From assembly GCF_017811155.1 (NCBI RefSeq), contig NZ_JACVCV010000015.1, positions 1-64,000 of the forward strand: a stretch of DNA of 64,000 nucleotides. The letters are read 5' to 3'. The notes under the pieces were generated by a model. The model saw only the letters and a program-made list of their open reading frames with translations. It did no database searches and was not told the origin of the DNA. The stretch is from Lunatimonas salinarum. GTDB lineage: Bacteria > Bacteroidota > Bacteroidia > Cytophagales > Cyclobacteriaceae. Both the position numbers and the translations under genes were made by a program. Positions 19,848 through 56,914 of the stretch are shown here, one piece after another; the stretch's first letter is position 1; each line of letters opens with the position of its first letter.

Positions 19848-22820
19848 TCAGAAATTCACGTTTATGCCAGCCGTCAATTGCCGGGAATTAGGATAGGTTC
19901 CGTACGTACTACCCAATGAGTTTACCTCGGGATCCAATCCGTTGTATTTGGTCAGCGTCCATAAATTGATACCTTGAATGAAAAACTTCGCGGATTCTAT
20001 TTTGGCCTTTTGGGTAAACCGCTGCGGAACCGTATAATCCAAGGTAACTTGCTTTAAACGCACATAACTGCCATCAGAAAGCTGCTTGGTAGAAAACTGC
20101 TGATATCCAGAGTGACCGGGAAACCTTCCACCTTCATAGGGCTTTGGAACGTTGGTGATGTCGCCCGGTCTGCGCCAGAAATAAATTTGATCAACCGTCT
20201 GATTATCCTGTCCGATGGAACCAGCCTGTGCGATGTTATAGAGATCTTGGTTAAATGCCAAGTTGCCAAACTGGTACTGAAAAAACACTTCCAACGACAA
20301 CGGCCCGTAGCGGAAGGTGTTGGATAGGCCTCCAAAATTCCAAGGCAAGGCACTGCCAATATACTTTTGGTCATCATCAGATAACAGGTAGGTATATTCT
20401 CCAAATTGATCGAAATACATGGGTGCACCATTCGCCGGATTAACGCCCGCATACTCGTATGCGTAATAAAAATCCACCGGCTTACCCACGATCAGTTCAT
20501 TACCAATCCGATCCAAGCCTCCATAGAGCTCCAATAACTCGTTGGAAAAAATGGAAATATTGAAAGCCGTATTCCAGCGGAATTTGCCCCAAACCACATT
20601 CGTTGTCTGCAAGTCGAAGTCAATGCCCTGATTGCGAAGTTTTCCCGTATTTCTGGTGATGGCACCAAACCCTGAGTCTATGGGCAACTGCGTCTCAAAC
20701 AGCAGTCTACGGGAGTCCTTTCTCCAAACATCGACGGTAGCGATGATCCTTCCATTAAAGAACGTTCCATCCACACCTATGTTGGTAGAGGCAGCTTCCT
20801 CCCAAGTCAACAAGTCGTTTCCAAGCTGTGAGAAACGGAGTGCGCCTCCACCCAAATATTGGCCGGAGGTACCTACGAGTGTTCTGGCTACAAAGTTGCC
20901 AATATCTGAGTTCCCTGTGATGCCGTATGAAGCCCTTAACCTTAAGTTGTCCAGCCAGGTAGTATTTTGTAGGAACGCTTCTTCTGAAATTCGCCATCCG
21001 GCTGATACCGCACCAAAGTTACCCCATCGGGTATTGGCACCAAATCGGGAGGATCCATCCCGCCGGGCGGTGATGTCGAAGGTATATTTGTCGTCGTAAT
21101 CATACTTTGCCTGCGAGAAAAAACCCGCTCGCTTGTACTCCGTGAAAAAACCACCTACTTCAAAGGGCTGGGCAGCATTCTGAAGATACCTCAACACCGG
21201 ATTGGGAAATCCGCGCCCTGTAGCAGAGGTAGCTTCCGAGGTTTCCGCTTTGTATTCGTATCCTAGAATTCCCGACAGCGTATGAACACCATTAAATTTC
21301 TTGTTTACATTGAAATTGCCATTGGCATTAGAGTTGATGATACGTCGGTCAGTATAGGTGGACGACCCACCGTATGCAGAGAAAGCAGGTATGGTGGACG
21401 GACGGTTGTTTTCATCCCGGTTATCCGAAAAATCGATCCCTCCAAAACCAGTGAAGCCCAGCCAAGGTAAAATTTGGTAGGTCATCTGCAGGTTAGATAC
21501 GGACTGATAGGTCGTGGCCCTACGCAACTCCTGATTCACACCCTGCACAATATTGTATCCAAACAAGTGCTCGTTCGGATACTCGGCAAAGGTACCGTCT
21601 TCGTTGTAAATCGGCACATTAGGGCGGGAAACAAACCCCGCCACAAAGGGGCTATTGACGAAATTTCCCCGATCGATGGTTCCATTGGTGATTTGTCGGG
21701 ACAGGGATATATTGGCATTGATGGTAAATCGCTCGTTTGCCCGGTGGGTGAGATTTAACCTGCCGGTAGTACGGCTGTAATCCGAACGAATAATCTGTCC
21801 CTGCTGAAAGGTATGGCCTCCGGATATAAAAAACTGGGTTCGATCATCCCCACCCGAGATAGACATATCGTAAATCCGGAGTCTTCCATCTCTGTAGAGT
21901 GCCCCTAACCAATCGGTGGTCTCCAAGTCCCGGTCACCAGGGCTACCAAATAGCTGTTCTGCCTCTAAGGGATTTAGCCCCGCATTGATGTAGGCCTGCC
22001 TTTTGATTGATGCTAGCTGATTCGCATCCATCATGTCGTAAAAGGCAATTGGCTGCACAATACCTTCTTGCGCACTGAATCGCACATTGGTTTTTCCTTG
22101 CTTCCCTCGTTTGGTCGTAATCAGGACCACCCCATTAGAGGCTTGTGCCCCGTAAATGGAAGCCGCAGCCGCATCCTTAAACACCTCAATGGATTCGATA
22201 TCGTTGGGATTAATAGATGCCAGCGCATTTTGAGAACCTTGCCCAGAAAGCCCTCCCGGGGCTATCTGCACGCCGTCTACGATATACAAAGGTTGGGTTC
22301 CTGCGTTGATAGAGCCCACCCCCCTAATCTGCACGTTTAGGGTGCCTCCCGGCTGACCGGATCCAGCTGTTACCTGTACTCCCGCTACCCTTCCCTGCAT
22401 CGCACGGTCAAAGGACTGCATGGGAAGATCCTGAAAAATCTCCCCTTTTACCGATGCAATAGCTCCGGTGACCTCCCGCCTCGTTTGATCCCCATAGGCG
22501 GTTACCACCACTTCTGAAAGGGACGTAAGCTCAGGCTGCATGGAAATGATCAGATTTGTCCTGTTGCCAATTGTCACCTCTTGGGTTTGCAATCCTACAA
22601 ACCTGAACACCAACACATTACGATCCTCCGGAACAGAAAGCTGAAAGTTTCCATCCAAATCAGTAATGGTGCCCTGCGTCGTTCCTCGGATGACGACGGT
22701 TACACCTGGGATAGGCCCTCCGTCTTCGGCGGAGTTGACTACCCCGCTAATCGTTCGCACCTGAGCGTCCACGGCTAGAGAGATTCCAAGTAGGAAAGTT
22801 AACGCCAGTAATGCCTTCAT
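19848..22820 (-). CDS. SusC/RagA family TonB-linked outer-membrane protein
   Basis: A 990-residue TonB-dependent transporter. The signal peptide ends at about residue 19 (VDAQ). A carboxypeptidase-D-like N-terminal extension follows (ISGVVNSAEDGGPIPGVTVV, about 24-43). The SusC box SEVVVTAYG near 103-111 precedes the plug domain (QIRGVGSINAGTQPLYIVDG). A 22-strand barrel with a C-terminal NVNF end follows. It is first in the susC-susD-lipoprotein-protease operon. The ~146-nt leader between a -7 box (22973-22980) and the ATG contains a repeat unit shared with the ccm operon and a 35-codon upstream ORF ending 3 nt before this start. Confidence 0.95.
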   Translation of the reverse strand: MKALLALTFLLGISLAVDAQVRTISGVVNSAEDGGPIPGVTVVIRGTTQGTITDLDGNFQLSVPEDRNVLVFRFVGLQTQEVTIGNRTNLIISMQPELTSLSEVVVTAYGDQTRREVTGAIASVKGEIFQDLPMQSFDRAMQGRVAGVQVTAGSGQPGGTLNVQIRGVGSINAGTQPLYIVDGVQIAPGGLSGQGSQNALASINPNDIESIEVFKDAAAASIYGAQASNGVVLITTKRGKQGKTNVRFSAQEGIVQPIAFYDMMDANQLASIKRQAYINAGLNPLEAEQLFGSPGDRDLETTDWLGALYRDGRLRIYDMSISGGDDRTQFFISGGHTFQQGQIIRSDYSRTTGRLNLTHRANERFTINANISLSRQITNGTIDRGNFVNSPFVAGFVSRPNVPIYNEDGTFAEYPNEHLFGYNIVQGVNQELRRATTYQSVSNLQMTYQILPWLGFTGFGGIDFSDNRDENNRPSTIPAFSAYGGSSTYTDRRIINSNANGNFNVNKKFNGVHTLSGILGYEYKAETSEATSATGRGFPNPVLRYLQNAAQPFEVGGFFTEYKRAGFFSQAKYDYDDKYTFDITARRDGSSRFGANTRWGNFGAVSAGWRISEEAFLQNTTWLDNLRLRASYGITGNSDIGNFVARTLVGTSGQYLGGGALRFSQLGNDLLTWEEAASTNIGVDGTFFNGRIIATVDVWRKDSRRLLFETQLPIDSGFGAITRNTGKLRNQGIDFDLQTTNVVWGKFRWNTAFNISIFSNELLELYGGLDRIGNELIVGKPVDFYYAYEYAGVNPANGAPMYFDQFGEYTYLLSDDDQKYIGSALPWNFGGLSNTFRYGPLSLEVFFQYQFGNLAFNQDLYNIAQAGSIGQDNQTVDQIYFWRRPGDITNVPKPYEGGRFPGHSGYQQFSTKQLSDGSYVRLKQVTLDYTVPQRFTQKAKIESAKFFIQGINLWTLTKYNGLDPEVNSLGSTYGTYPNSRQLTAGINVNF

Positions 22821-22931
22821 GTGTTAATAACTTTTTTTAATTTCCCGGATGAAATCCCTGACTACCGGCATACAGGTCGCATGATTTATTATCATCCAAC
22901 TAGGTTTCGATTGCGTCATGCTCGATTTCAT
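22821..22931 (-). repeat. Leader repeat unit (susC copy) of the ccm-type family
   Basis: A 111-bp unit on the minus strand. It begins ATGAAATCGAGCATGACGCA and ends directly at the susC ATG. It contains GCATG ... CATGCGACCTG, then TGCCGGTAG and CAGGGATTTCATC. It aligns over its length with the units at 53198-53322 and 53829-53933 in the ccm operon, including the paired GCATG/CATGC stem. The rest of the susC-OmpA spacer (22932-23229) holds only a -7 box and weak hairpins. Confidence 0.75.
22824..22931 (-). CDS. Possible 35-codon leader peptide upstream of susC
   Basis: An ATG ORF whose product starts MKSSMTQSKPSW. It ends with TAA three bases before the susC ATG, in the same frame. Translation would bring ribosomes to the susC start, so coupling is possible. 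Related small ORFs (MKSST..., VKSN...) occur in the ccm repeats, but several of those are truncated, so coding is not uniformly conserved. There is no protein-family match that I recognise. Confidence 0.3.
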   Translation of the reverse strand: MKSSMTQSKPSWMIINHATCMPVVRDFIREIKKSY

Positions 22932-50364: not shown

Positions 50365-51426
50365 TTACCAGAGCGAATCAATGCCCAATCGCTCCTGCCA
50401 CCCTTTTACTTCGGTCAATAAATTATCCAAGACCTGCATTTGGGCTCTTTCCAACGGGGCATCCGTACTGCGGCACTTCACCGGGGTTTCAAAACCTCGC
50501 TTGGATAAAAAGTAACGAGCTCCAAGCTGATACTGTTTGCCGATTTTTTGTTCTGCCACCCGAAGCCTTTCCTGCAGCCATTCCACCTCATGGCGATGGC
50601 GGGGATTCGATGCATGATCGCACATCCAAGTGATGATGTCGGGATAAAAATTACCAGCAATAGGGGAAAGACCTGCCCCTCCATATTGTAACGAAGCGGC
50701 CGCACTGCCGATATGGGCATTATAAATCTCTAAGTCAGTACCCTTGCTTTTATCCAACTTAGCCCTGATCTGCGCAATATCTTCGGTAGTATCCTTGTGA
50801 TAAATAAAACGCTCGGATGCTACCATAAAATCCATTATGGCGGGCGTTACGATGCGCTTGTAGGGAGACGGACATTCGTAGGTTCCCATACGAATCCCAT
50901 CGGTATCCTGCAAGAATTCGTCAAGGCGTTGGATCAAGCGTCCATCCGATTCGGACTTCTCCGCAAAATGACTGGTTATCAAGATCACGGCGTCGACACC
51001 GGTATCCCGCATCTTTTTGGCAAAATCAGCTTGCGACCTAACATTCTCTCCAAAAGAGCCGGTAGCCACTACCGGAATCTTGCCTCCGACATGCTTAACC
51101 ACGTGGTTTGTCAGTTGAATACGTTCCTCACTGGACAGATGATACATCTCGCTGCTCAGGCAGTTGGCAAAAAATCCCGTCGCCCCAGCTTGAAGGTAGT
51201 AGTCCATGAGACGGCTCATTCCACTGTAATCGATGGCACCATTTTCTTTGTACACAGTCAGCATCACAGGAATAAACTTTTGACGTTCCTTAGGGACCGA
51301 TGGAGATTCAACTAGGCGGGAGGCCATCGGCTGGGCCACGCCCTGTAGACCAACCGTTGTCATTCCCAAGCCCAAACCAAGCTTGCTCAAAAAGTTTCTT
51401 CTCGACACATAAATTGATGAATTCAT
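50365..51426 (-). CDS. DapA/NanA-family aldolase with Tat signal
   Basis: A 353-residue class I aldolase-fold protein of the dihydrodipicolinate synthase / N-acetylneuraminate lyase family. The N-terminus carries a twin-arginine signal: SRRNFLSK at 8-15, then LGLGLGMTTVGLQG. In the family, Lys on strand 6 forms the Schiff base, here Lys211 (FIYHKDTT), and the Tyr of the YNxP motif appears as Tyr183 in TYECPSPY. Export of this normally cytosolic fold suggests a periplasmic role in sugar-acid or sialic-acid breakdown; the substrate is not known. Start at ATG 51426; an ATG 13 codons upstream is possible. Confidence 0.8.
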   Translation of the reverse strand: MNSSIYVSRRNFLSKLGLGLGMTTVGLQGVAQPMASRLVESPSVPKERQKFIPVMLTVYKENGAIDYSGMSRLMDYYLQAGATGFFANCLSSEMYHLSSEERIQLTNHVVKHVGGKIPVVATGSFGENVRSQADFAKKMRDTGVDAVILITSHFAEKSESDGRLIQRLDEFLQDTDGIRMGTYECPSPYKRIVTPAIMDFMVASERFIYHKDTTEDIAQIRAKLDKSKGTDLEIYNAHIGSAAASLQYGGAGLSPIAGNFYPDIITWMCDHASNPRHRHEVEWLQERLRVAEQKIGKQYQLGARYFLSKRGFETPVKCRSTDAPLERAQMQVLDNLLTEVKGWQERLGIDSLW

Positions 51427-51610
51427 TGTTATGGGAGTTAATGGGTTATTTCTTGATAGCTTCATCGGGTGATAAGGTTATGGTAGGGAATCAATAGTCT
51501 ATACCTACTGAATGCATACTGCCAACCTAGCAAAACAGACCAGTGGAGAACGAACTTTTTACTCTTCACCTCTTTTTCTAGCGAAAATACCTTACTTCCC
51601 CGATAGCTTG

Positions 51611-51618
51611 TATCTTTG
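51611..51618 (+). promoter_or_regulatory. ccmB -7 box TATCTTTG
   Basis: An exact TAnnTTTG match ending 4 bp before the ATG at 51623, predicting an essentially leaderless ccmB mRNA. It argues against the long in-frame start at 51512. Confidence 0.5.
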
Positions 51619-51622
51619 CAGC

Positions 51623-52291
51623 ATGATGCGGCAGGAAATCATCACCTTGGTAAAGAAAGAGGCAACGCTGGAATGGCGGCAGAAATACGCCCTGAACGGC
51701 ATATTGCTCTATGTGATCAGCGCGGTTTACATCACCTACCTAAGCGTGGGAGTCAAAGGTGGCACTCTTCAGGTTCCTACATGGAATGCCCTTTATTGGA
51801 TCATCATTCTGTTCTCTGCCGTGAATGCGGTAGCCAAGAGCTTTATCCAGGAAAGTCAGGGCAGGCAGCTTTATTACTATATGATCGCCTCTCCGGAAGC
51901 AATCATCCTTTCCAAAACCATTTATAACACAGGGCTCACGCTGTTGCTTTCTTTGCTGGGGTATGCGGTTTTTTCCGTGATTATGGGAAACCCGGTTCAA
52001 GATCAACCCATGTTTCTACTGAACCTCCTGCTGGGCGCCGTCGGCTTTTCTTCTAGCCTCACGATGGTTTCCTCCATTGCAGGCAAGGCTGGAAACAACG
52101 GCACACTGATGGCTATTTTGAGCTTCCCCGTCCTCATTCCCATCCTACTACTCACCATTCAAATCTCTCAAAACGCCATCGATGGGCTAGACAGAAGCGT
52201 CAGTTACGATAAAATGATCACCCTATTGGCCATCAATGGGTTAGTCGGTTCATCCTCTTACATACTCTTCCCCTATCTCTGGAAAAGCTAA
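51623..52291 (+). CDS. ccmB: Heme exporter permease CcmB
   Basis: A 222-residue inner-membrane protein with six predicted TM segments, the length of E. coli CcmB (220). It is the membrane part of the CcmAB transporter that releases holo-CcmE from CcmC. Its cytosolic start MMRQEIITLVKKEATLEWRQKY resembles the family's KKELRLE-R segment. FSAVNAVAKSFIQESQGRQLYYYMIASPEAI near 75-105 is the conserved loop. The ATPase CcmA is not encoded in the window. Start is ATG 51623 (or the next codon), not 51512. Confidence 0.92.
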   Translation: MMRQEIITLVKKEATLEWRQKYALNGILLYVISAVYITYLSVGVKGGTLQVPTWNALYWIIILFSAVNAVAKSFIQESQGRQLYYYMIASPEAIILSKTIYNTGLTLLLSLLGYAVFSVIMGNPVQDQPMFLLNLLLGAVGFSSSLTMVSSIAGKAGNNGTLMAILSFPVLIPILLLTIQISQNAIDGLDRSVSYDKMITLLAINGLVGSSSYILFPYLWKS

Positions 52292-52392
52292 CCGCACATA
52301 CCGATCAAATAAGCAACTAACACGCCCGTTCAAGTCCCAATTACGTTGATCAAATAAACCCTATTATAATAAAGAATTAGGGATTTAAACCT

Positions 52393-52400
52393 TACTTTTG
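52393..52400 (+). promoter_or_regulatory. Candidate -7 box TACTTTTG upstream of ccmC leader
   Basis: An exact TAnnTTTG match. Start near 52406 would place the whole R0 repeat unit (52413-52518) in a ~112-nt leader of ccmC. No good -33. Confidence 0.4.
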
Positions 52401-52412
52401 TCGTAAGACTAT

Positions 52413-52514
52413 GTGAAATCGAACATACGGAAAGGGTCGCACGTAAAATTGATTATGATGCGGCAACCTGTATCCCGAAAGGGAGGCTGTAGACCCGTGA
52501 CGAATAAATTATAA
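52413..52514 (+). CDS. Possible 33-codon leader peptide upstream of ccmC
   Basis: A GTG ORF (VKSNIRKGSHVKLIMM...) ending TAA four bases before the ccmC ATG. It is strongly basic. The position parallels the 35-codon ORF before susC. It may be a by-product of the repeat rather than a gene. Confidence 0.25.
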   Translation: MKSNIRKGSHVKLIMMRQPVSRKGGCRPVTNKL

Positions 52515-52518
52515 ACAC
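52413..52518 (+). repeat. Leader repeat unit R0 before ccmC (divergent)
   Basis: A 106-bp unit. It starts GTGAAATCGAACATACGG, aligning with the ATGAAATCGAGCAYGACG start of the other units, and ends ...AAATTATAAACAC at the ccmC ATG. Inside is a GNRA hairpin TCCCGAAAGGGA (52473-52484) with flanking CAACC/GGCTG pairing. CATA/TATG replaces the GCAYG/CRTGC stem. This is the least similar of the six units. Confidence 0.6.
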
Positions 52519-53193
52519 ATGAAATCAACTTGGTGGAAGGTATTGGCCATTATCTTACTGGCGTATACCATCATTGCAGGCGTCCTAGCTGACGTGCCAC
52601 GCCTCCCCATTCTTAATGAAACGATCCGCGCATTGTATTTCCATGTAACCATGTGGTTCAGCATGATCCTATTGCTTACAGTGGGAATCGTGTATAGCAT
52701 TCGGTTTTTGAAAAACAACCGCTTGGAAGATGATGATATGGCCGTGGAGTTTACCAATGGCGCTATTTTGTTTGGCGTGATTGGAATCGTCACAGGCAGC
52801 CTATGGGCCAGGTTCACCTGGGGGGCCTACTGGACCAATGACCCGAAACTGAACGCTGCAGCGGTGGGACTCCTTATGTATTTTGCCTATCTCATTCTTC
52901 GGAATTCCCTTACGGACATGCATCAGCGGGCCAAAATCAGCGCCGTATACAGCATATTCGCCTATGCGGCGTTTATCCCACTGATATTCGTCTTACCCCG
53001 CCTTACAGACAGTCTTCACCCCGGAAACGGCGGAAATCCCGGATTCAATGCCTACGACATGGACAGTCAGCTTAGAATGGTCTTCTACCCGGCGATTGTC
53101 GGATGGACACTCTTGGGGGCTTGGGTCAGCACGGTGCGCGTAAGGCTACGGAGAATGGAGCGTAAAATGGAGGAAAACTTAATTAATCAATAG
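52519..53193 (+). CDS. ccmC: Heme-handling protein CcmC
   Basis: A 224-residue inner-membrane protein with six TM segments that loads heme onto CcmE. The tryptophan-rich WWD heme motif appears as WARFTWGAYWTNDPKL near 94-109. Two conserved periplasmic histidines flank it: YFHVTMWFS near 41 and DSLHPGNGGN near 170. Its ATG lies at the exact 3' end of repeat unit R0. The C-terminus is basic and cytosolic. Slightly shorter than E. coli CcmC (245). Confidence 0.94.
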   Translation: MKSTWWKVLAIILLAYTIIAGVLADVPRLPILNETIRALYFHVTMWFSMILLLTVGIVYSIRFLKNNRLEDDDMAVEFTNGAILFGVIGIVTGSLWARFTWGAYWTNDPKLNAAAVGLLMYFAYLILRNSLTDMHQRAKISAVYSIFAYAAFIPLIFVLPRLTDSLHPGNGGNPGFNAYDMDSQLRMVFYPAIVGWTLLGAWVSTVRVRLRRMERKMEENLINQ

Positions 53194-53197
53194 ACAC

Positions 53198-53322
53198 ATG
53201 AAATCGAGCACGAGGCAAGCAGCACACGGAGGGACGCCCCGATAGTTATCGGAGAATTCGTGCGACCTGCCTGCCGGTAGGCAGGGATTCCATCTGACCG
53301 CTTAAAGACAAATTATATACAC
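53198..53322 (+). repeat. Leader repeat unit R1 (tandem, longest)
   Basis: A 125-bp unit that begins 4 bp after the ccmC stop with ATGAAATCGAGCACGAGG. It carries two palindromes, CCCCGATAGTTATCGG (53237-53252) and CCTGCCTGCCGGTAGGCAGG (53266-53285). It ends ATTCCATCTGACCGC...ATTATATACAC exactly where R2 starts. The stem GCACG/CGTGC is kept. The small ORF in it stops after 15 codons in the first palindrome. Confidence 0.75.
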
Positions 53323-53414
53323 ATGAAATCGAGCACGACGCAAGCGACACACGGAGGAACGATTGTAATACGTGCGAGATTCCATCTGACCGCTTAAAGA
53401 CAAATTATAAACAG
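53323..53414 (+). repeat. Leader repeat unit R2 before the ccmD-like gene (shortest)
   Basis: A 92-bp unit in head-to-tail tandem with R1, starting ATGAAATCGAGCACGACGCA and ending directly at the ATG of the ccmD-like gene. Both palindromes of R1 are missing, leaving the bare core with the GCACG/CGTGC stem. It contains a 24-codon ORF (53323-53397) starting MKSSTTQATHGG. Last ~35 bp are nearly identical to R1. Confidence 0.75.
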
Positions 53415-53663
53415 ATGAAAAAATTACTGTTCATTTCGCTGATCCTGCTTTCCCTTTCGCTCAAGGCCCAGGATAAAATCGAAATAACTGGGGAAGACTA
53501 CCAAAACACCGGCGTAGAGATGGCTGATGTGATGCGGTCAAATGGCAAAATCTTCGTTTTGGTGGGGATAATTGGAATTGTTTTGGGGGGAATTTTGGTT
53601 TATGTGATACAGACAGACCGGAAGATTTCCAAACTGGAAGAGCAATTTAAAGATCTATCTTAA
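53415..53663 (+). CDS. CcmD-like small membrane protein
   Basis: An 82-residue protein between ccmC and ccmE, the place occupied by ccmD in classical operons. It has an N-terminal signal-like segment (MKKLLFISLILLSLSLKAQ), a short periplasmic stretch, one TM helix (about 46-66, IFVLVGIIGIVLGGILVYVI) and a charged tail DRKISKLEEQFKDL. A TM helix followed by a basic then L-E-x-L pattern is the CcmD style; CcmD helps release holo-CcmE. Bacteroidota versions carry a longer N-terminus. The call rests mainly on size, topology and position. Confidence 0.7.
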   Translation: MKKLLFISLILLSLSLKAQDKIEITGEDYQNTGVEMADVMRSNGKIFVLVGIIGIVLGGILVYVIQTDRKISKLEEQFKDLS

Positions 53664-53705
53664 AATAGGGTAAGGTATGCCTGCATAAATTCAACTGGTA
53701 AAAGG

Positions 53706-53828
53706 ATGGAATTAAGCATGACGTAGCCGAGACGCAAAGGGACAACGAACATACATGCTGCCTACCAGTAAGCAGGCATTCCGAAAAATCGAAAAAGGTT
53801 GTGACCACTGAAAATCAATTATTGACAC
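53706..53828 (+). repeat. Leader repeat unit R2b (divergent) after the ccmD-like gene
   Basis: A 123-bp unit that starts ATGGAATTAAGCATGACGTA, 18 of 22 bases matching R3's start. It holds the GCATG/CATGC stem and a palindrome-like TGCCTACCAGTAAGCAGGCA (53758-53777). It ends GTGACCACTG...AATTATTGACAC at the start of R3. Its small ORF stops after 6 codons. Confidence 0.6.
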
Positions 53829-53933
53829 ATGAAATCGAGCATGACGTAGCTGTCACACAGTGGGCTGCCCCGATAGCTATCGTGGCAACCATGCGAGATT
53901 CCATCTGACCGCTAAAGAACAAATTATAAACAG
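53829..53933 (+). repeat. Leader repeat unit R3 before ccmE
   Basis: A 105-bp unit starting ATGAAATCGAGCATGACGTA and ending directly at the ccmE ATG. The stem is GCATG/CATGC, where R1 and R2 have GCACG/CGTGC: a compensatory change. A palindrome CCCCGATAGCTATCGTGG lies at 53868-53885. The 3' part GAGATTCCATCTGACCGC matches R2. The ORF stops after 6 codons. Confidence 0.75.
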
Positions 53934-54350
53934 ATGAAAAAAGGACATATCATAGGACTGGGAATCATTGGCGTAGCCATAATGATCATTATCACTTCAA
54001 TAGGGGATGCCAGTACTTACGAGAGCTTCTCAACCGCTCGCATACTTGCCAGCAATGGTGACGTAAAACCGATCCACGTAGTAGGAGAACTTAAAAAGAA
54101 CGACGCGGGAAAAGTAGTCGGTATCGAAGTGGGAGAAGACAAAACCTCTTTCACCTTCCTTATGGTGGACAATGACGGCACCGAGCAACAGGTGTACTAC
54201 AACGAACCTGTACCTGCGGATTTCGAGCGTTCTGAGCAAGTGGTCGTGATCGGTTCCTACAAAAATGAATCCATCTTTGTGGCCGAAAAAATCCTCATGA
54301 AATGTCCATCTAAGTATCAGGAGACCGATGTCCAAGCAGCCTCCATGTAA
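53934..54350 (+). CDS. ccmE: Heme chaperone CcmE, Cys variant
   Basis: A 138-residue periplasmic heme chaperone tethered by an N-terminal TM helix (about 5-23), followed by the OB-fold barrel (VVGELKKNDAGKVVGIEV, QVVVIGSYKNESIFVAEKILMKCPSKY). In most CcmE the heme is bound covalently by His in HxxxY. Here the motif is CPSKY near 125-129, with Cys in the His position and the Tyr kept. That is the signature of the System I* pathway described in some sulfate reducers and archaea, which also lacks CcmG and CcmH. Neither is present in this operon. Confidence 0.9.
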   Translation: MKKGHIIGLGIIGVAIMIIITSIGDASTYESFSTARILASNGDVKPIHVVGELKKNDAGKVVGIEVGEDKTSFTFLMVDNDGTEQQVYYNEPVPADFERSEQVVVIGSYKNESIFVAEKILMKCPSKYQETDVQAASM

Positions 54351-54385
54351 TTACCATTCTCACTTGTAAATCAACCCAAAGGATA

Positions 54386-56914
54386 ATGATCAATACCTTC
54401 GTTGGTAATTTGGGGCACCTGATGACGATAGTCGCTTTTGTGACGGCCATCATCACTGCCTTTTCCTACTTTCAATATATCAAAGCCCCGGAACTAGAAA
54501 AGGCTTCTTGGAGAACGTTTAGTAGATTCACCTTTTATGTGCATTCGATTGCCAGCGTAGGAATGGCAATAGCGTTATTTGAGATTATCTACAGTCATCG
54601 GTTTGAGTATTTTTATGCATACTCCCACTCCTCTGTAGCACTACCCGTCCATTACATGATATCGAGTTTCTGGGAAGGGCAGGAAGGGGCTTTCATACTT
54701 TGGATTTTTTGGAACGTTGTTCTAGGACTCATACTCATCCATACCAATAAATTCTGGGAGGGTCCGGTCATGTTGGTATTTGCTTTGGTTCAAGCGTTTT
54801 TGGTTTCGATGATTTTGGGGGTGGTGATTGGCGACCTGAAAATTGGTAGTTCCCCCTTTATCCTTTTACGGGATGTGTCAGACGCTCCGATTTTCCAAAT
54901 CAACCCAGACTTTATCCCAGAAGACGGTACGGGATTAAATCCCCTTCTTCAGAATATATGGATGGTAATCCACCCACCCACGCTATTTTTGGGATACGCT
55001 TCTACCCTGGTTCCCTTTGCGTACCTGATGGGAGGGTTGATCATGAAAAAATATTCCGACTGGGTCAGGCCGGCCCTCCCTTGGGCGATATTTTCTGCCA
55101 TGATATTGGGCATGGGAATCATCATGGGGGCTTACTGGGCTTATGTCACCCTTAACTTTGGCGGTTATTGGAACTGGGATCCGGTGGAAAACGCAGTATA
55201 TGTACCTTGGCTGGTGATGGTGGCAGCTATACATACCATGATCACCTATAAGAAAAGCAGTACGGCACTGAAAACTTCCATCGTCTTAGTGATCAGCTCT
55301 TTTATCTTGGTATTATACGCTACCTTCTTGGTGCGCAGTGGAGTACTGGGAGATTCCTCCGTCCACTCCTTTACCGACTTGGGGCTATCGGGGCAGTTAT
55401 TGATCTACATGCTGTTTTTTCTGTTCGTGGCAGTATTTTTTTCTGTCAAGGAATGGAAGCACATTCCGACTTCAGAAAAAGAGGCGTCCGTGTATTCCAG
55501 AGAGTTTTGGATATTTATCGGCGCCACTACGCTGGGTTTGATGGCATTTCAGGTGATCGTACCTACCTCTATTCCTGTGTATAACGCCATTGTAGAGGGG
55601 CTGGGTGGCATCTCCAATATGGCTCCGCCTGCAGACCAAGTTGGCTTTTATACCAAATTTCAGCTATGGTTTGCCGTTGCTCTGGCACTGTTAACGGGGG
55701 TTGGCCAGTATTTCTGGTGGAACAAAATGGATAAAAAGGACCTGAAGGATGCTCTGGGAACGCCCTATGTCATTTCCATGATCCTGGCGGCAGCCATTAT
55801 CACCCTTGGAAAGGTCTATGATGTCAGTTATATTGTGGTAGTATTGGCCGGAGCCTTTACCATTGTTGCAAACGGTTCCATTCTGATCAAGTTGATTAAA
55901 TCGGGCTCTCTAAAGCTTACGGGAGGATCCGTAGCCCATATAGGCTTGGGTATGGTACTGATCGGTGTCATGTTTTCTTCGGGGTATTCCGACACGATCT
56001 CCATCAACATGTCCGGCCTGACCTATAAAAAAGACTGGGAGGACGAACTCAACAAACAAAACGTGCTTCTCTGGATCAACAAGCCCCTTCAAATGAAGGA
56101 ATATGAGGTCATTTATCGGGGCCGTCATAAAAAAGTATCCGGTGTACCCGGTTATGTAAAAGCCGATCTGCTGGAGTCTACCGACGGTGTCAATCAAGCA
56201 ATAGCACTGGATGATATTCGGATCAAGGACAAACTTTACCATAGAAAAGGGGACACGGTGGACATTGTATTGGAACAAAACAGCTACTTTAAGGTAGAAT
56301 ACTATCAGAAGGACGAGCTGCAGTTTACGCTGTACCCCATGTCCCAACCCAATCCCACCATGGGCCTGATCTCATCTCCGGATTCCAAGCGGTACTTGTC
56401 GAGAGACTTGTACACTCACGTTTCGGCCATCAACGACTATGAAGAACCGGAGTGGAAAGAAGATCAGTTTGAGGGTGCTGCCCCCGGAGAGCAGTTCTTC
56501 ATAAACGATTTTGTCACGTTTTTTGAAGGTGCCGAAATTGTTAAAGAAGTCGATGGTGTGGAACTTATGGAAGGGGATATCGCAGTAAAAGCGACACTGA
56601 TTATCAACGATTACGACGTGGAAAAAAGATTGGAACCTATCTTCCTCATACGTGGAAATCAGGTAGGAAAAATATCCCACGTCGACAATGACCTCGGCAT
56701 TAAGGTGGAAATCGAAAATATTGTCCCGGAAGATAATAAGTTCATGTTCAAGTACAACACCTATCAAAAAGACTACGTGGTGATGAAGGCTTCAATTAAG
56801 CCGTTCATCAATGTACTCTGGATGGGCACCATCATCATGCTGATAGGTTTCACCGTGGCGATATATCGCCGCTACGACGAGTTTACCAAAATGAGAAATA
56901 AGGGTTTGGAATAA
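54386..56914 (+). CDS. ccmF: Cytochrome c synthetase subunit CcmF
   Basis: An 842-residue polytopic inner-membrane protein that ligates heme to apocytochrome c. Multiple TM helices run through about residue 540. The WWD heme motif is GGYWNWDPVENA near 260-272. Conserved heme-face histidines include HYMISSFWEGQEGAFILW near 87-105, IHPPTLFLGY near 193-202 and VHSFTDLGL near 325. A large periplasmic domain (about 545-810) and a last TM helix close the protein. It is last in the ccm run, with a terminator 28 bp after the stop. It is longer than E. coli CcmF (~650), mainly in the C-terminal periplasmic domain. Confidence 0.94.
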   Translation: MINTFVGNLGHLMTIVAFVTAIITAFSYFQYIKAPELEKASWRTFSRFTFYVHSIASVGMAIALFEIIYSHRFEYFYAYSHSSVALPVHYMISSFWEGQEGAFILWIFWNVVLGLILIHTNKFWEGPVMLVFALVQAFLVSMILGVVIGDLKIGSSPFILLRDVSDAPIFQINPDFIPEDGTGLNPLLQNIWMVIHPPTLFLGYASTLVPFAYLMGGLIMKKYSDWVRPALPWAIFSAMILGMGIIMGAYWAYVTLNFGGYWNWDPVENAVYVPWLVMVAAIHTMITYKKSSTALKTSIVLVISSFILVLYATFLVRSGVLGDSSVHSFTDLGLSGQLLIYMLFFLFVAVFFSVKEWKHIPTSEKEASVYSREFWIFIGATTLGLMAFQVIVPTSIPVYNAIVEGLGGISNMAPPADQVGFYTKFQLWFAVALALLTGVGQYFWWNKMDKKDLKDALGTPYVISMILAAAIITLGKVYDVSYIVVVLAGAFTIVANGSILIKLIKSGSLKLTGGSVAHIGLGMVLIGVMFSSGYSDTISINMSGLTYKKDWEDELNKQNVLLWINKPLQMKEYEVIYRGRHKKVSGVPGYVKADLLESTDGVNQAIALDDIRIKDKLYHRKGDTVDIVLEQNSYFKVEYYQKDELQFTLYPMSQPNPTMGLISSPDSKRYLSRDLYTHVSAINDYEEPEWKEDQFEGAAPGEQFFINDFVTFFEGAEIVKEVDGVELMEGDIAVKATLIINDYDVEKRLEPIFLIRGNQVGKISHVDNDLGIKVEIENIVPEDNKFMFKYNTYQKDYVVMKASIKPFINVLWMGTIIMLIGFTVAIYRRYDEFTKMRNKGLE

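Follow-up and report, generated by a model that had tools for sequence, protein, structure and literature searches.

The repeat units that separate genes of the ccm operon of Lunatimonas salinarum are probably members of a family of mobile elements of Bacteroidota-type bacteria, small, non-autonomous, and likely to move as single strands. The element enters immediately 5' of ATGAA(A), always in the same orientation to that target and without duplicating it. I lean towards reading the units as short non-autonomous copies of an element directed to its sites by a guide sequence and served in trans by an enzyme of the HUH (Y1) type.

The window, by which is meant the whole stretch of 64,000 nucleotides that was analysed, contains five such units and one segment that had been mistaken for one. 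CM stands for the covariance model described below:

22821..22931, minus strand: additional unit, absent from the earlier note, 111 nt; CM match, E=2.2e-10
52413..52518, plus strand: 5' leader of ccmC, not a unit; no CM match; aligns with the leader in G002
53198..53322, plus strand: R1, 125 nt, both of the optional palindromes present; CM match, E=4.8e-19
53323..53414, plus strand: R2, 92 nt; CM match, E=1.1e-17
53706..53828, plus strand: R2b, decayed, beginning ATGGAATTAAGC; weak CM match, E=0.003
53829..53933, plus strand: R3, 105 nt; CM match, E=2.8e-23

A sequence-only reading of this DNA had listed five ATG-edged repeats in the ccm operon, and four of the five do belong to a single family, 52413-52518 being the exception. 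Those at 53198-53322, 53323-53414 and 53829-53933, together with the degenerate unit at 53706-53828, begin with a form of ATGAAATCGAGCAYGACG and have ATG directly 3', as that reading had it, and the head-to-tail pairs it recognized, R1-R2 and R2b-R3, are both evident in the sequence. R1 sits between the leader of ccmD (left flank ...CAATAGACAC) and R2, which lies directly 5' of the start codon of the ccmD-like gene (53415-53663). R2b lies directly 5' of R3, and R3 directly 5' of the ccmE start codon at 53934. The additional unit, at 22821-22931, stands directly before a 990-codon SusC-type gene that starts at 22820. The sequence ATGAAATCGAGCATGACG, with up to three mismatches allowed, occurs five times in the window, where 100 shuffles average 0.03, and the right-end motif AAATTATAAACANATGAAA six times, where they average 0.18.

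The segment 52413-52518 is not among the CM matches in its own genome, of which there are at least 100 at E≤0.1 (the best 150 of 1883 candidates were scored). It can be aligned with the leader 5' of ccmC in the sister species G002, a leader that does not resemble a unit, and near it, at 52393-52400, is a TAnnTTTG sequence that I take to be a promoter-like box. Because of this alignment and this box, it is best regarded as the ordinary leader of ccmC. Its right edge, AAATTATAAACAC/ATGAAA (here and below a slash within a sequence marks an edge or cleavage site), does resemble that of a unit.

Units are mostly 91-125 nt in length, and about 90-125 nt overall. The parts of the element may be seen in R3:

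53829..53834, plus strand: left end, ATGAAA, constant in the element while targets vary
53833..53843, plus strand: left arm of stem P1 (AATC-GA-GCATG), from covarying pairs
53868..53882, plus strand: optional REP-like palindrome in the loop of the stem (CCCCGATAGCTATCG...), an inverted repeat
53890..53900, plus strand: right arm of stem P1 (CATGC-GA-GATT), from covarying pairs
53899..53907, plus strand: guide-like segment TTCCATCTG, complementary to CAG/ATGAAA at the right edge
53908..53933, plus strand: A/T-rich right end, ...AAATTATAAACAG
53934..53939, plus strand: target ATGAAA, the first two codons of ccmE, from a target profile of 114 arrays

The consensus of P1 is AATC-GA-GCAYG ... CRTGC-GA-GATT. 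In the alignment of 30 units from which the covariance model was made, 95.3% of the cells of P1 are paired and the covariation score of 0.108 is reached by none of 500 shuffles (0.055). Two of the five covariation measures, the number of changed pairs and the number of pair types, do not exceed what shuffling gives: 447 and 495 of the 500 shuffles equal or surpass them. A second alignment, of 23 units drawn from 11 genomes, considers the stem together with the pairing at the right edge. Here 93.5% of cells are paired, the covariation score is 0.308, where shuffles give 0.116 and none of 500 equals it, three pairs are changed on both sides (35 of 500 shuffles at least as high), and the five pair types represent no excess (398 of 500). 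The units are related, so counts such as these are not independent. Stems in public genomes differ greatly yet pair, for example AATGCCC with GGGCATT. A loop motif like CACAC..GGGATGATTAT, with no more than two mismatches, is found in 55 of 83 rows of public units L271-L350 (one row empty).

The segment TTCCATSTG is complementary to the right edge and target taken together, CAS/ATGAAA. The variable base of the guide complements the unit's own end base in 104 of 126 units from L. salinarum and G002 (64 C-G, 40 G-C) and at 87 of 91 public sites among the matches listed. TTCCAT can also pair with the left ATGAAA of the unit, with one A.C mismatch, in 112 of 113 units of L. salinarum and G002 and in 22 of the 23 units of the second alignment, and TTCCATCTG of R3 can do the same; the pattern used to scan public genomes fixes the C of this A.C, so those genomes are uninformative concerning the mismatch. 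On the bottom strand the A.C becomes G.T. Wobbles within the stem (five G.U and five A.C) indicate no preference of strand. When six bottom strands were folded as DNA, the 3' TTTCAT was paired with the guide in four, of which only L043 and L046 clearly beat shuffles, and in L042 and L018 the folding gave no such pairing. The base to the left of a unit tends not to complement the guide, a tendency largely limited to units in tandem or beside relics; elsewhere the comparison gave p=0.075. In the tandem arrays of G000 and G002, a unit ending in CAC is often followed by one ending in CAG, and the reverse.

Then there is the evidence of related genomes that have the flanks and not the units. At site A (C89:50069), occupied by a 91-nt unit in L. 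salinarum and a 92-nt unit in G002, the flanks in G001 are contiguous between 4028 and 4029, exactly AGACAC/ATGAAAGCATCC. An older unit, decayed and common to all three species, supplies the left flank of this site with its A/T-rich end, which shows how an array is built up. Between ccmC and ccmD, all three aligned relatives (G001, G002 and G003) are without R1 and R2, and their ccmD leaders match the left flank of R1; with no unit at that place in any of them, the suggestion that the repeats are a leader element of these genes fails there by the condition that the sequence-only reading had set for refuting it. Between the end of ccmD and the ATG of ccmE, G001 has nothing like R3 and G002 has other sequence in its place. 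Both sisters lack the 84-nt divergent unit and the 92-nt unit of site B (C122:191404), and both lack the pair of units at site D, where the upstream flank has diverged. Site C is occupied in G002; no empty junction could be read at site C in G001, where the sequence is unreadable, at C89:54348, or at the first array of L140. The divergent 84-nt relative (ATGAAATCGAGCCTGCC...) in the region C122:191404-191579 (L135, L023) shares only the ends of units and, compared with both sisters, was acquired along with the 92-nt unit.

The two ATGAAA sequences that bracket a unit have different origins. The left end of the element is constant, ATGAAATCG, while the right targets vary (ATGAAT, ATGAAG, ATGGAA, ATGCAA, GTGAAA), so the left ATGAAA is a part of the element, and the right one is its target. 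The same observation rules out a target-site duplication.

Copies are numerous in some genomes and few in others. At E≤0.001, a search of 39 genomes, L. salinarum included, found CM matches in 12: 92 in L. salinarum, 45 in G001, at least 101 in G002, 16 in G022, 6 in G003, and one to three in each of seven more. Of the 96 best matches in L. salinarum, 89 could be placed in arrays (the other 7 and the 4 weakest matches were left out), giving 73 arrays: 58 single, 14 double and one triple. In G002, 40 regions holding the best-listed matches gave 56 units in 41 arrays. The public matches listed come mostly from Algoriphagus, Cyclobacterium, Lunatibacter, Lunatimonas, Pleomorphovibrio and Agaribacillus; others are from Labilibaculum, Saccharicrinis, assemblies of Bacteroidales and Flavobacteriales, and the Bacterium BMS3Abin03 record. 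Rfam gave no match at E≤10 to 51000-55000 of the window and none at E≤1 to six public loci, and no description of the element was found in the open-licence literature of PubMed Central.

What lies at the right edge is strikingly uniform. The edges of the 73 arrays in L. salinarum are ATGAA in 66 cases, GTGAA in two, ATGGA and ATGCA in one each, and something else in three, one of which (C79:61943) is a shift of the model boundary and reads AAAC/ATGAAAAC. ATGAA is found at the edge of 40 of 41 arrays in G002 and, with a scan pattern that stopped before the ATG, at 87 of 91 distinct public sites from the 80 loci listed. The profile over 114 arrays is ATGAA with A as the next base in 88%. A frame of at least 70 codons opens at the edge of 49 of 73 arrays in L. 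salinarum, 32 of 41 in G002, and 51 of 91 listed public sites (some frames run off the locus). The edges with no such frame are mostly ATGAA too (19 of 24 in L. salinarum, 8 of 9 in G002, 36 of 40 listed public sites), and it follows that the edge is set by the target sequence and not by the gene. Start codons are nonetheless enriched: of the 224 ATGAA sites that 452 kb of L. salinarum has outside the interior of genes, 92 (41%) look like starts (a simple ORF caller placed 1043 more within genes), and against this baseline, used for both genomes, the excess at array edges has p=6e-6 in L. salinarum and p=2e-6 in G002. Some of the sampled stretches were picked because they hold units, and the ORF caller is crude; I take the excess to be modest.

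How else might such units have arisen? The sequence-only reading was right that the units run from ATG to ATG, and this is the key to the element. It went on to suppose that copies were made by duplicating a start-to-start segment, which within operons could mean tandem duplication or gene conversion. Such a process would yield head-to-tail units, and 15 of the 73 arrays have them. It is too much to expect, though, that duplication would leave single units at unrelated loci in the other 58 arrays, a constant left end beside varying targets, and empty sites in relatives, where a foreign segment has evidently been gained; I give the idea scarcely any credence. The notion that the units are structured mRNA leaders deserves somewhat more, though it too is improbable. 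By this account TTCCAT pairs with the AUG of the unit or that of the gene, a short frame within the unit controls the gene, and copies that spread by some other means are retained for regulation. Consistent with it, many predicted RNA folds place the start codon within a pairing, array edges coincide with start codons in excess as just described, the frame from the left ATG stops on a TGA overlapping the right ATG in 14 of 89 units, and in one member of the Bacteroidetes initiation is tuned by structure close to the start (PMC6847099). Against it, that frame stops internally in 58 of 89 units, several of the orthologous genes in sister species have no units, and of the 73 arrays, the 24 without a frame of at least 70 codons still mostly end at ATGAA. 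For the last reason the leader idea fails as the main cause. The counts of 14 and 58 units also dispose of a conserved leader peptide as the main function. Insertion remains the preferred reading, and units may have a secondary effect on translation, which the predicted structure around the start codon could reduce or regulate.

If the units are mobile, some enzyme moves them. L. salinarum has five Y1 genes, and the ends of units were found at none of 35 Y1 loci scanned for an autonomous parent (those five and 30 of relatives). On its contig C44 (L033), a fragment of a Y1 transposase has at about 1720-1736 the sequence AAATATAAACAGATGAA, which agrees at 16 of 17 positions with the right edge of a unit. 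The unit and Y1 gene on G001:C86 were rejected as a parent, with ordinary genes lying between them, and a general correlation with Y1 was rejected as well (10 of 12 genomes with units have Y1, versus 21 of 27 without). All five genomes with six or more units have a RAYT 88-96% identical to L034, while the other RAYT loci compared, a part of all RAYT matches, are at most 50% identical to it; three of the five genomes belong to one genus. Genes of this type have GTAG palindromes on their flanks, where units are absent. The palindrome CCCCGATAGCTATCGGGG, present in many units, occurs near the 5' end of a RAYT gene (L035 and L222, from G000 and G001) and is missing from other aligned copies, as if mobile alone. 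Several of the genomes encode class-1 Y1 proteins with the motif YIxNQxxHH, which marks subclass 1.2, whose ends are not known according to PMC6006769. An alternative is that a non-HUH enzyme, RNA-guided or a recombinase for example, moves the element, with TTCCATSTG serving as an RNA or DNA guide. In favor of this are the want of a Y1 gene that shares the ends of units, the presence of units in G005 and G011, where no Y1 match was found, and a guide pairing that spans six to nine bases, where the guides described for IS200/IS605 are tetranucleotides (PMC6006769). On the other side, a search for a TnpB-type gene gave no match in L. salinarum (control matched in 6 of 14). The search for IscB (PF14239) matched none of 39 genomes, and the control genomes likewise gave none. 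I consider a non-HUH enzyme unlikely, if less so than the leader.

I propose that the element is moved by a candidate HUH (Y1) enzyme acting in trans, by a single-strand route, as follows. TTCCATSTG would pair either with the right edge and target or, with one A.C, with the element's own left ATGAAA, and would serve as the guide by which both cleavage sites are chosen, in the manner of the single-strand systems of IS200/IS605 and REP. On the bottom strand the sites would be TTTCAT/ and the guide CASATGGAA, at the 5' foot of the hairpin, with G.T in place of A.C. Should the left ATGAAA of a resident element be targeted again, or that of the gene, head-to-tail arrays would result. With ATGAAA at left and right, ATGA is kept for both neighbors, as a start downstream and an overlapping stop upstream; at C55:23988 and C81:37084, upstream frames of 486 and 514 codons do end on the TGA of the left ATGA. 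The A/T-rich right end would presumably substitute for the native ribosome-binding region of the gene. A/T-rich leaders with no Shine-Dalgarno sequence are normal in this phylum (PMC6847099), and because of this it is plausible that a replaced leader is tolerated.

More tentatively, this may be a widespread Bacteroidota family that aims at start codons by means of a built-in guide of six to nine bases that spans the end and ATGAAA, one guide for both ends. This model predicts that a changed guide would bring a changed target. Once a copy is in place, the pairing might double as a translational switch, and if the guide is real, the guide logic of single-strand elements would extend to a longer, single guide. 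This would be a mobile element that gets into operons at the only place where both neighbors can have an ATGA restored, with the upstream stop and the downstream start kept. Insertion explains the odd, long gaps in compact operons such as ccm. About 100 natural insertions per genome offer a test of how well Bacteroidota tolerate a replaced ribosome-binding region.

How do the units compare with systems already known? HEARO elements were reportedly found by Weinberg in 2009 to adjoin ATGA or GTGA, and the units resemble HEARO/IscB in this neighborhood. They differ in size and anatomy and have no match to HEARO in Rfam. TAACTGA direct repeats, which also occur in some Bacteroidetes, lie like the units mostly just 5' of start codons, but they are seven-base tandem repeats with no hairpin, guide or insertion junction like those of the units (PMC4679880).

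The REP/BIME elements served by RAYT are closer: small, about 100 per genome, with a single hairpin that has a guide (in the units a putative one) at its 5' foot, head-to-tail or clustered copies, and an enzyme in trans, which for the units is proposed. The units, in contrast, have no guide of the GTAG type, are longer (mostly 91-125 nt) and have ATGAA as a precise target, while the RAYT genes here have GTAG palindromes of their own and no units alongside. With IS200/IS605 the units share a fixed orientation to a short target that adjoins one end, the lack of a target duplication, a subterminal hairpin, and a putative bottom-strand guide 5' to its foot that is complementary to the predicted cleavage sites. 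They depart from it in having no linked transposase, a single hairpin and a single putative guide that would serve both ends, a guide that pairs six to nine bases and not a tetranucleotide, and a target that coincides with the context of the start codon.
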